A stretch of DNA of 51,370 bases from Gammaproteobacteria bacterium (GCA_030147705.1 JASBUV010000097.1:1-51370), one strand, 5' to 3'; counted from the first letter of the stretch, positions 10,107-13,816 are shown. The notes: generated by a model from the letters alone, not told the origin. A program made the numbers and translations.

Positions 10107-10259
10107 TCCGGTCACTAGCACTCAGCTTGGCGTTACGTACGCTCTCCTTGTGCGAGAAGCCTCAAAGGGACAACACGTGTGTGCTGTTCAAGAGCTGCGT
10201 GTCATCCATCGATAACTTATACTTGCCACACTAGCTGGAAGTCAGCCTGGAATGAACTG

Positions 10260-11177
10260 ATGTATTCGAAGACAAGGATTCTGCACACCGCGCTATTGAT
10301 TCTCGGCGCAAGCGCTACTCATCACACGAGTTGGGCGAACGAGACTATTCAGCTATCGCTATCAGCTGGTAGCGAAAGTAATGTCACCCGTGGTCTGCAT
10401 GACCCCCATATCAAACCGTCCGGATTCCTGAGTGCCCGATTGGAAGCGGGTAAGCTATTTCAGCTTGGTGTAAATGACTCGCTGTTGTTGGGAGTCGGCG
10501 CCAGTAGCAAGCGATATGGGAAGCTGTCCGGTTTTGACCAGACTGCCGCATCGCTATCCGCAACGTTTGTGCACAAGTTTGGATTTGGTGCCTATGCTCA
10601 TCAGCTCAGTCTATCCGCGTCGCATCAATGGTTGGCTGCGCGAGGAACAGCAAGAGACAGGGAAACCTCAGCGATAAATCTGGGGTGGAGCAAACGACTC
10701 ACGCCGGCATGGTCTTTGTTCGCGTCTGTATCCGCCGAAGAGAATCAGACGCAGGAGCTACCAATGCAGGCTCGTCTGAATGCACTGGGCTATGATCCTC
10801 TGGTGGCATTGCCTTTCAAGCTCTATGACTACAGCAGTAAAGCTCTGCAGATTGGCGCGGATTACACCTTCGCCAACGGATTAATGCTCACGGGGCAGTA
10901 CGAGCGGAGTGATGGGTACTCCATCTCGAGCACCGCTCACCCTTCGCAGTCCATCTATAAAATTGCATCGGCATTTTATATTGAGCCTGCGTTTGCAAAT
11001 GATTGGTACGCCTACCGGCTCAAGGCGGATATCGATTCCTATTCGCTGTCAGTTAGCATTCCACTTGCGCAAGATATGGCCGTGGATATTTCCGGTAACT
11101 GGTTCGATATCTCAGCTCCGGCAGGAAAGCATTATGATAATTCCGAGCTATCGGTTGGTCTGACCTGGGGATTCTAA
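10260..11177 (+). CDS. Predicted outer-membrane beta-barrel protein, first gene of a three-gene operon (start refined to ATG 10260)
   Basis: Signal-peptide-like N-terminus (MYSKTRILHTALLILGASATHHTSWA), alternating amphipathic strands, C-terminal ELSVGLTWGF ending in Phe. Confidence 0.8.
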   Translation: MYSKTRILHTALLILGASATHHTSWANETIQLSLSAGSESNVTRGLHDPHIKPSGFLSARLEAGKLFQLGVNDSLLLGVGASSKRYGKLSGFDQTAASLSATFVHKFGFGAYAHQLSLSASHQWLAARGTARDRETSAINLGWSKRLTPAWSLFASVSAEENQTQELPMQARLNALGYDPLVALPFKLYDYSSKALQIGADYTFANGLMLTGQYERSDGYSISSTAHPSQSIYKIASAFYIEPAFANDWYAYRLKADIDSYSLSVSIPLAQDMAVDISGNWFDISAPAGKHYDNSELSVGLTWGF

Positions 11178-11180
11178 CGC

Positions 11181-11876
11181 ATGACTTTAACAGGGATTAT
11201 ACGTACGCAGTTGCGCCAGTCAGGACGATTTATGGTATTGCTCGTTCTGGGCTTTTGGCAGCAGTACGGGCTAGGGCAGACAATTCAATTTTCTTTGATT
11301 GATAGTGAAGGGCAGCCAGTAGAAGAAGCTGTCATTGAATTGATATTACCGGAGGCGATGCGAGGCGAGTATCAAGCGACAGCAATCCATGAGATCGATC
11401 AAGTGGACAAGGAGTTTGTTCCCCACATTAAAACTGTGGTTGCGGGAAGCCAGATTGGATTTCCAAATAGCGATGCCATCCTGCATCACGTGTATTCCTT
11501 TTCTGCGCCTCGACCGTTCAATATTCCGCTCTATGGCAGGGGCGAAAATGACGACTTTTTTGAGACATTTCCGCAGCCCGGTGTTGTCGAAATAGGTTGT
11601 AACATCCATGACTGGATGCTTGCCTATATCTATATCGGAGAAACCTCGCTAATGAGTATCACTAATGCTGAAGGCGCTGCGAGTTTGAGTGGGCTGCCAG
11701 GCGGAGATTTTCAGCTGCGGATCTGGCACGCTCGTCTGGATGCTCCCGGGAATGTTATGCAAGTGCCTGTTAGCCTGCAGGGTGGCCAGACGAGTAGTGT
11801 AGATCTGCAGGTCTCATTGCAAAGAGATCGCAGGATTCGCCGGGCGCCGTCTGCGAATCGTACGCGATATCGCTAA
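11181..11876 (+). CDS. Cupredoxin-like 'methylamine utilization' type periplasmic protein with a carboxypeptidase-regulatory-like tail
   Basis: Type-1 copper ligand pattern: HHVYSF then GCNIHDWM (C-x2-H-x2-M); TNAEGAASLSGLPGGDFQLRIWHA tail. Confidence 0.85.
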   Translation: MTLTGIIRTQLRQSGRFMVLLVLGFWQQYGLGQTIQFSLIDSEGQPVEEAVIELILPEAMRGEYQATAIHEIDQVDKEFVPHIKTVVAGSQIGFPNSDAILHHVYSFSAPRPFNIPLYGRGENDDFFETFPQPGVVEIGCNIHDWMLAYIYIGETSLMSITNAEGAASLSGLPGGDFQLRIWHARLDAPGNVMQVPVSLQGGQTSSVDLQVSLQRDRRIRRAPSANRTRYR

Positions 11877-11890
11877 GTGGAAGCATCGAA

Positions 11891-13816
11891 GTGAGTGCAA
11901 GCAGAAAATTCTTTGCGTTCACCTCATTTCGCGCTCGCCTTCTGACATTTCTGTCCGCGCTTCTCATCCCCATTCTCGGTGGAACGCTGTATTACGTAAA
12001 TCGCAATAACACGGACTACACAGAAGAAACGATCAATACCTATTTGCAATTGGGCGCCGATGTCTTCGATTACACCAGGAGGCAGGAAGCTGAAAAGCTC
12101 ACATCTATCATCTCCAGTCTGACCTGGGACTATGGTTATCGTACTGCATTCGCAGCCAATGATCCGGCCACCTTGTTTGATGCCTCCCTGAATGTGATTG
12201 AGAGATCCATGGAAAGCACACACATGCTCATGGTAGTCGACCTTAATCACGAAGTGATCATCGATACCGCATTGCAAGGTTTTTCCCGAGTACAAGGCGC
12301 GTTCGAAGAGCTGCTCGTTCGTGCAGAGAACTCGGTTAATTTCCAGGCGGAAACGATTACTGAAGTCAATGGCGTGCCATACCAGCTTATTGCGCACGGA
12401 TTATACTTACCCCGTCAGGTCGCCTGGATCATCGGCGGTTTTGCACTCGATGATGCATTTGTTGAACGTGTTGCGGAAAGTGTTGTTTCTGAGGTCAGTA
12501 TCGTTCGGCATTTCTCCAGTGGTGAGAGGCAAGTTATCACTTCAACGCTTCCGGATGCAGAAAGACAGTTGCTGGCTGAGCAATTGGAGTTTGCTGGTGT
12601 TATAGACCGGATTCAGCTGATCAGCTATCCGAACGAGGATTGGAGCACGCTGTTGCGACCATTGTTTCAATCCGAAACTGATGGCAGCGAAGTGCTGGCA
12701 GTCATTCAGCGCTCCTATGATGAGAATCAGGAAAATGTTGTGCAGTTCCGGCAACTGCTGATCCAGTTTTATCTACTGGTATTTGCGCTGAGTCTGTTCG
12801 CGGTATTGCTGCTGGCGCGCTCTATTTCTCAACCGCTTACTCGGCTGGCAAGCGTGGTGCGCCGTATCGAAGCGGGCGACTATCTGAAGCGAGCAGAGAT
12901 TGAGTCCAGCGACGAATTGGGGGAACTGGCCGAGTCGGTTAACAACATGGCTAGCGGCCTCGCGGAAAAAGAGAAAGTAAGGGATCTGTTAGGCAAAGTC
13001 GTTTCACAGGAAATCGCAGAAGAGCTCTTGAATAACCCGGTCGAGCTGGGTGGTGAAGAGCGTGTAGTGACAGTGCTTTTCTCTGACATCAGAGGCTTTA
13101 CTTCCTATTGCGAGGGTTTGCCGCCGAAAGAGGTTCTGACCGCTCTCAATGAAGTGCTCAGCAGCATCAGTAATATTATTGAAGCGCACAGTGGGGTGGT
13201 GGACAAGTTTCAAGGAGATGCGGTGATGGCGTTGTTCGGCGCGCCCGTTACCGGACAGGACGATGCGAGCAACGCTGTGGCAGCTGCAGCGGAGATCGTT
13301 GCGACCCTGGACAGTCTCGATTCCAGACTGAGTGCTTGTGTCGGCATCAATACGGGTTTGGTTGTCGCCGGAAATCTCGGTTCAAAGAATCGACTGAATT
13401 ATTCTGTCATTGGCGACACTGTCAATCTGGCAGCGCGCCTGGAAAGTCTCACGCGCTACTATGGAACAGCCTCGATCGTCAGTGAGGCTACGGTTCAGGC
13501 CACACCGGAATTTCTGTTCCGCGAGCTGGACGAAGTCGTGGTGGCTGGAAAGCGGAAGCCAGTGAAGATATTTGAGCTCATAGGTCGCAAAAAGGAAGTT
13601 TCTGATGAGAAGAAGGCGGAAGTGAGCCAGTTTGCTTCAGCGCTGCAGTGTTACCGGGAACAAAATTGGCAATCTGCCCGGGAGCAGTTTATTCAGCTGC
13701 AGCGATCATGCGACAATAGCGCTCTCTGCCAGATATTCCTGGATCGTATAGCGCATTTTTCCACGAACCCGCCAGCCGAGAATTGGTCTGGCGTCTACGT
13801 TTTCGACAAGAAGTAG
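11891..13816 (+). CDS. Membrane class III adenylate/guanylate cyclase with large N-terminal sensor region and HAMP domain
   Basis: N-terminal TM, about 240-aa extracytoplasmic region, second TM, HAMP (RSISQPLTRLASVVRRIEAGDY), catalytic VTVLFSDIRGFTSYCEG, VVDKFQGDAVMALFGAP, NYSVIGDTVNLAARLE. Confidence 0.93.
   Translation: MSASRKFFAFTSFRARLLTFLSALLIPILGGTLYYVNRNNTDYTEETINTYLQLGADVFDYTRRQEAEKLTSIISSLTWDYGYRTAFAANDPATLFDASLNVIERSMESTHMLMVVDLNHEVIIDTALQGFSRVQGAFEELLVRAENSVNFQAETITEVNGVPYQLIAHGLYLPRQVAWIIGGFALDDAFVERVAESVVSEVSIVRHFSSGERQVITSTLPDAERQLLAEQLEFAGVIDRIQLISYPNEDWSTLLRPLFQSETDGSEVLAVIQRSYDENQENVVQFRQLLIQFYLLVFALSLFAVLLLARSISQPLTRLASVVRRIEAGDYLKRAEIESSDELGELAESVNNMASGLAEKEKVRDLLGKVVSQEIAEELLNNPVELGGEERVVTVLFSDIRGFTSYCEGLPPKEVLTALNEVLSSISNIIEAHSGVVDKFQGDAVMALFGAPVTGQDDASNAVAAAAEIVATLDSLDSRLSACVGINTGLVVAGNLGSKNRLNYSVIGDTVNLAARLESLTRYYGTASIVSEATVQATPEFLFRELDEVVVAGKRKPVKIFELIGRKKEVSDEKKAEVSQFASALQCYREQNWQSAREQFIQLQRSCDNSALCQIFLDRIAHFSTNPPAENWSGVYVFDKK

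Follow-up and report, generated by a model that had tools for sequence, protein, structure and literature searches.

We consider it rather probable that a compact operon in a 51,370-nucleotide stretch of DNA from a gammaproteobacterium (GCA_030147705.1 JASBUV010000097.1:1-51370; this whole stretch is called the window here) encodes a signalling unit that spans the envelope with three parts and whose periplasmic copper protein would, judging from sequence, act as the input subunit of a membrane receptor. We give about even chances to the broader proposal that the operon belongs to a widespread superfamily of dCache receptors with a periplasmic blue-copper protein as exchangeable input; copper or redox conditions at the cell surface would then be converted, depending on the lineage, into cAMP, c-di-GMP, His-Asp phosphorylation or Ser/Thr phosphorylation.

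Organization of the operon

The genes for an outer-membrane barrel, a cupredoxin and a class III cyclase lie on the same strand, separated by spacers of 3 and 14 bp (Table 1); coordinates, strand and gaps are exactly those given in the first-pass annotation. recA and recX lie on the 5′ side of the operon and a DUF1015 gene on its 3′ side. We note that a gene like this DUF1015 gene also adjoins a dCache_3 receptor that has no cupredoxin (L193:3305-5629). A scan for promoters and terminators returned sites no more frequently than in shuffled sequence. The window corresponds to contig C204 of the source genome, which is 78% complete and consists of 295 contigs.

Table 1. Features of the operon in window coordinates (aa, amino acids)
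Feature	Position	Strand	Basis
Outer-membrane 12-stranded beta-barrel, 305 aa, signal peptide, C-terminal Phe	10260..11177	+	AlphaFold2, Foldseek, homologues
Exported cupredoxin protein, 231 aa, signal peptide	11181..11876	+	AlphaFold2; Foldseek; A1 profile
CarboxypepD_reg (transthyretin-like) domain, first half, about aa 33-56	11277..11348	+	Pfam match of joined halves
Nested cupredoxin domain, about aa 67-153	11379..11639	+	Ligand spacing, model, conserved block in A1/A3
Copper ligand His102 (NSDAILH), predicted	11484..11486	+	Invariant, 67-row alignment
Copper ligand loop C140-N-I-H143-D-W-M146 (C-x2-H-x2-M), predicted	11598..11618	+	Invariant in 67 rows
CarboxypepD_reg domain, second half, about aa 155-211	11643..11813	+	Pfam PF13620
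C-terminal tail RRAP...RYR, conserved, low-confidence, flexible	11823..11873	+	Conservation among loci
Membrane class III adenylate cyclase receptor, 641 aa, TM-sensor-TM-HAMP-cyclase	11891..13816	+	Pfam PF00211, PF00672; PDB class III cyclases
Periplasmic sensor region, aa 38-282 (245 aa), probably a divergent dCache_3	12002..12736	+	PF14827 in relatives
HAMP domain, aa 307-357	12809..12961	+	PF00672 E 1.9e-14
Class III cyclase catalytic domain with D399, K439, D443, D509, N512, R516	13064..13573	+	Pfam, alignment

The cupredoxin

What kind of copper protein does the operon encode? No Pfam cupredoxin family matches it significantly, and an NCBIfam match (E 0.034, an unrelated family) falls far under that family's cut-off and was set aside. 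The AlphaFold2 model (pLDDT 89.8) is matched by Foldseek (E 2.2e-6) to purple cupredoxin, pseudoazurin, plastocyanin and amicyanin, with FtrB, a cupredoxin-fold iron-transport protein, also among the structural matches, and the cupredoxin profile (A1) matches the cupredoxin domains of CuNIR. The four predicted type-1 copper ligands, H102, C140, H143 and M146, do not vary in the 67-row alignment, and the full set is kept in 118 of 121 loci. The exported type-1 copper protein claimed earlier is therefore borne out in its predicted signal peptide, its modelled fold and its His/Cys/His/Met set, and where a cupredoxin that binds no copper would have told against the earlier interpretation, the ligands are in place as far as sequence tells. 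In two cupredoxins that adjoin GGDEF-EAL receptors (L074:6236-6946 and L076) the loop reads C-x2-H-x2-S; the Met is gone, and the copper site is possibly altered or lost.

The predicted cupredoxin domain interrupts a CarboxypepD_reg domain, within which it is nested. Taken in full, the protein matches CarboxypepD_reg at E 5.8e-4 over profile positions 28-81 only, whereas the flanks joined without the cupredoxin insert match at E 3.6e-7 over positions 5-81; the joined flanks of two relatives match at 1.1e-10 and 2e-8, above the cut-off. The protein ends in a conserved tail with an R-x-P...Y pattern, which occurs in 59 of the 68 loci that have a barrel of the window's type and in 6 of the 34 that do not. 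This raw association is strong, but it loses significance when phylogeny is taken into account, with only three independent pairs on supported branches, and we keep the idea that the tail is a barrel-docking peptide only as a hint.

The first-pass annotation mentioned 'methylamine utilization protein' genes beside signalling enzymes in other marine gammaproteobacteria. The C-x2-H-x2-M spacing is that of the amicyanin loop, and an amicyanin-like ligand loop would explain this database name. The link probably goes no further than that: no methylamine dehydrogenase gene adjoins the cupredoxin gene, and we set aside a role in methylamine metabolism. The methylamine dehydrogenase families PF06433 and PF02975 have no match in the 78% complete genome, a weak absence, as the control genomes matched neither.

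The source genome has one cupredoxin of this family. Elsewhere, a separate cupredoxin subfamily with a CDAHDFM-type loop (L070, L075 and relatives) adjoins large HEAT-repeat proteins, and other distant cupredoxins adjoin c-type cytochromes.

The receptor

The third gene encodes a receptor whose periplasmic region is bounded by two transmembrane segments and followed by HAMP and cyclase domains. The sensor itself has no Pfam match; 15 of 19 aligned relatives match dCache_3 (PF14827), the best at 5.9e-19. The cyclase domain matches PF00211 at E 2.6e-23, and its relatives of solved structure in the PDB are bacterial class III adenylate cyclases. All six catalytic residues (two metal-binding Asp, the adenine-recognizing Lys/Asp pair and the transition-state Asn/Arg pair) are present, and each is shared by 45-50 of 50 cyclase-type relatives, a count that leaves out the row of L061, a Ser/Thr kinase. 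The cyclase looks active and ATP-type. The residues had been picked out in the first-pass annotation, for which an inactive cyclase would have been a serious objection; the predicted catalytic residues are intact.

The genome encodes five class III cyclases in all, the further four lying on contigs C9, C147, C72 and C155 of the assembly (G000), which suggests elaborate cAMP (or cGMP) signalling in the organism. It also encodes four cNMP-binding proteins and CRP (352 bits against a cut-off of 266), so the organism should have the means to read a cAMP signal.

The barrel

The barrel gene starts at the ATG at 10260, and its product has a signal peptide. An in-frame GTG at 10179 would make the product longer. 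The AlphaFold2 model, built with 53 relatives, has 12 strands and a pLDDT of 92.8. Foldseek matches it to many outer-membrane channels and singles out none; the best TM-score among the matches listed belongs to the COG4313 channel 4rl8 (0.59/0.66). The outer-membrane barrel proposed earlier is consistent with this predicted fold and with the signal peptide. In Pfam, the window's barrel matches barrel families below threshold only, and OMP_b-brl is matched by 12 of 53 members of its family. An MtrB-like conduit was considered and dropped, as the MtrB_PioB match (E 0.0034) is below the cut-off and the fold search gave it no backing; likewise, an NCBIfam match at E 4.7e-4 is to an unrelated family and far under its cut-off.

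Is the barrel an obligatory and specific partner? Its profile finds 22 matches in 274 gammaproteobacterial genomes, of which 4 adjoin a cupredoxin and 18 lie elsewhere, and this weakens the idea. Strongly scoring barrels of the window's family with no adjoining cupredoxin are found in G003, G086, G093, G120, G137, G154, G210, G218 and G246. Because the family also occurs apart from cupredoxins, we regard the barrel as a looser partner. In this respect the first-pass interpretation has to be amended; its conserved three-gene unit, its active-looking ATP-type cyclase and its kept copper site stand.

Conservation of the linkage

Two samples bear on whether these genes belong together. The first comprises 80 loci from named genomes, picked by cupredoxin similarity alone from at least 595 candidate stretches; the second comprises 274 gammaproteobacterial genomes, drawn evenly. 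Among the 80 loci, a sensor homologue is found in 69, a barrel homologue in 61, and both together in 54. The loci span nine phyla (Pseudomonadota, Verrucomicrobiota, Nitrospirota, Rokuibacteriota, Myxococcota, Thermodesulfobacteriota, Methylomirabilota, Rifleibacteriota and Nitrospinota, the last with barrel and cupredoxin only); most are metagenome bins, and single taxonomic placements may be wrong. A locus recorded as a Klebsiella pneumoniae MAG (L090) is of the uncultured gammaproteobacterial type, and that bin is probably mislabelled or contaminated. The order barrel, cupredoxin, receptor occurs in 41 loci, with median gaps of 5 and 7 nt. In the evenly drawn genomes, 21 of 25 sensor matches are clustered with a cupredoxin and 4 have none nearby, while all 16 of the best cupredoxin matches (>140 bits) adjoin a sensor.

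The neighbourhood search that the first-pass annotation had suggested thus returns conserved co-occurrence, and the linkage proves real and far wider than that annotation had guessed. An accidental neighbourhood of three genes in one lineage would be in keeping with the finding that only 4 of 19 genomes searched in the genus carry the cupredoxin, the window's own included and many of them incomplete. The identical order and short gaps in several phyla, together with the pairings just given, refute this explanation, to which we attach next to no probability. Furthermore, since the genome has five class III cyclases and one such cupredoxin, and the pairing recurs across phyla, it goes beyond chance.

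The linkage has exceptions. Eight loci with enough flanking sequence have cupredoxin and barrel without a neighbouring sensor, and in three others the contig breaks off. Among the eight, L095, L112, L132 and L137 have this sensor-less arrangement, and in the four alteromonad loci (Pseudoalteromonas) the cupredoxin accompanies another, third type of barrel with no adjoining sensor.

Exchange of the output

Which part of the receptor does the cupredoxin serve? A profile of the sensor alone, built without HAMP from the periplasmic regions of near relatives' cyclases, finds partners with class III cyclase, GGDEF-EAL and histidine-kinase outputs. The 80 loci divide into 43 with a class III cyclase, 20 with GGDEF-EAL, 3 with a histidine kinase, 3 with an unresolved output and 11 without a sensor. 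More distant gammaproteobacterial cupredoxins adjoin receptors that Pfam resolves as dCache-HAMP-Ser/Thr kinase. Loci of this eukaryote-like kinase type include L061:6814-9420, L062:4548-6674 and L064:3139-5898, and the L062 and L063 cupredoxins have long N-terminal extensions. Relatives retain the cupredoxin and the sensor and replace the output; our case rests chiefly on this pattern, from which we propose that the cupredoxin works for the sensor rather than for the cyclase. The link between cupredoxin and receptor is also wider than had been proposed, as one and the same pair is joined to GGDEF-EAL, histidine-kinase and Ser/Thr-kinase outputs.

The cupredoxin tree needs at least 12 (about 12) changes of output, of which the starred branches force only a few, the deep branches being weak. 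In the cyclase loci, cupredoxin distances correlate with those of the sensor at rho 0.69 and with those of the cyclase domain at 0.55; the coevolution argument is limited by low sensor identity and by weak support for the deep branches of the cupredoxin tree.

Several GGDEF-EAL loci have a barrel of another family (DUF3034), followed by a Bac_globin gene. In four of five such loci (L156:5887-10289, L058, L057, L049 and L044), cupredoxin, receptor, second barrel and Bac_globin follow one another; the DUF3034 barrel is confirmed in L156 and L058, and L044 has no receptor in between. The Bac_globin gene suggests an oxygen, NO or redox/gas theme for the GGDEF-EAL form, whose cultured carriers include Pseudomonas chlororaphis, Aromatoleum and Undibacterium.

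Proposed mechanism and alternatives

We propose that the copper-loaded or redox state of the cupredoxin would set whether, or how, it docks on the dCache domain. TM2 and HAMP would transmit the docking movement to the cyclase dimer, altering the formation of cAMP from ATP; from what is known of the family, the genome's CRP would read this cAMP. By analogy with the outer-membrane partner in YfiBNR, the barrel may anchor the copper protein or admit its ligand.

The main rival to a cupredoxin acting as receptor input is a cupredoxin with a job of its own. Alone or with the barrel, it would be an independent periplasmic electron carrier or a handler of copper or ferrous metal; the receptor would sense some other ligand and regulate that job, the two sharing a regulon and making no contact. 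dCache_1 domains usually bind small ligands (PMC8846402), and the sensor-less loci, the cytochrome and HEAT-repeat neighbours of distant superfamily members and the structural match to FtrB would all fit such a role. We nevertheless judge it unlikely, though worth keeping in mind: one cupredoxin-sensor pair is common to four output types, no constant metabolic enzyme or transporter adjoins these pairs, and the linkage of sensor and cupredoxin is near total both ways.

Alternatively, the cupredoxin could be an inhibitor like YfiR, repressing the receptor by binding it until captured at the barrel, with copper in a structural role and envelope stress as the signal. The layout across outer membrane, periplasm and inner membrane is that of YfiBNR (PMC4992967), and the flexible tail that tends to accompany the window's barrel would suit capture. 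That association fades on independent lineages, however, the Pfam scans reveal no homology to YfiR or YfiB, and copper that is merely structural would not need four near-invariant ligands. This reading seems to us distinctly improbable, and we retain the copper protein as sensing input as our preferred one.

Blue-copper proteins have an established role in electron transfer, and their use as a sensing subunit in second-messenger receptors would be new. To our knowledge, most dCache receptors have no assigned signal, and the pairing offers a candidate input for hundreds of receptors. A single cupredoxin-sensor pair with several outputs is a natural record of how an input is rewired to different cytoplasmic signals, and its conservation while outputs are swapped suggests an unstudied route by which extracellular copper or redox conditions could give rise to an intracellular signal.

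Comparison with known systems

We found no description of a cupredoxin-receptor pairing in the open-access literature searched; neither a 2022 census of c-di-GMP sensing nor a 2026 preprint on metal-cofactor Cache domains mentions copper or cupredoxins. The parts are of known kinds, and their combination and exchangeable wiring appear undescribed in the literature searched.

The closest parallels in layout are YfiBNR (TpbB), in which a redox-sensitive periplasmic protein inhibits an inner-membrane cyclase until an outer-membrane partner relieves the inhibition (PMC4992967), and the parallel HmsCD (HmsCDE) system (PMC8846402). In these systems, as in the window's operon, a component in the outer membrane and a regulator in the periplasm (a putative one here) go together with a receptor of the inner membrane that has a periplasmic sensor, HAMP and a nucleotide cyclase. 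The resemblance of the receptors is an analogy only: there the periplasmic domain is PAS/Cache-like, and here the output is a class III cyclase, exchanged among relatives, some of which have GGDEF-EAL. The periplasmic part is the cysteine-paired YfiR there and a type-1 copper protein here; the outer-membrane part is the OmpA-like lipoprotein YfiB there and a 12-stranded barrel here. In Pfam, the periplasmic protein matches CarboxypepD_reg only and the outer-membrane protein only weak barrel families. Because these two parts are unrelated to those of YfiBNR, the operon is not a member of that system.

With other class III adenylate cyclases (PF00211, e.g., the CyaB type) the receptor shares the six canonical residues and the HAMP-linked architecture; it differs in its divergent, dCache_3-like sensor with a dedicated cupredoxin gene. 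Similarly, the cupredoxin shares its fold with amicyanin (MauC) and pseudoazurin, and its C-x2-H-x2-M loop with amicyanin, but it is nested in CarboxypepD_reg, carries a conserved C-terminal tail and adjoins a receptor instead of methylamine dehydrogenase. Finally, the sCache_heme (DUF3365/Tll0287) sensors also combine Cache-type envelope sensing with a metal cofactor (PMC12889525); there the heme lies within the Cache domain, whereas here the predicted copper centre would reside on a separate protein.
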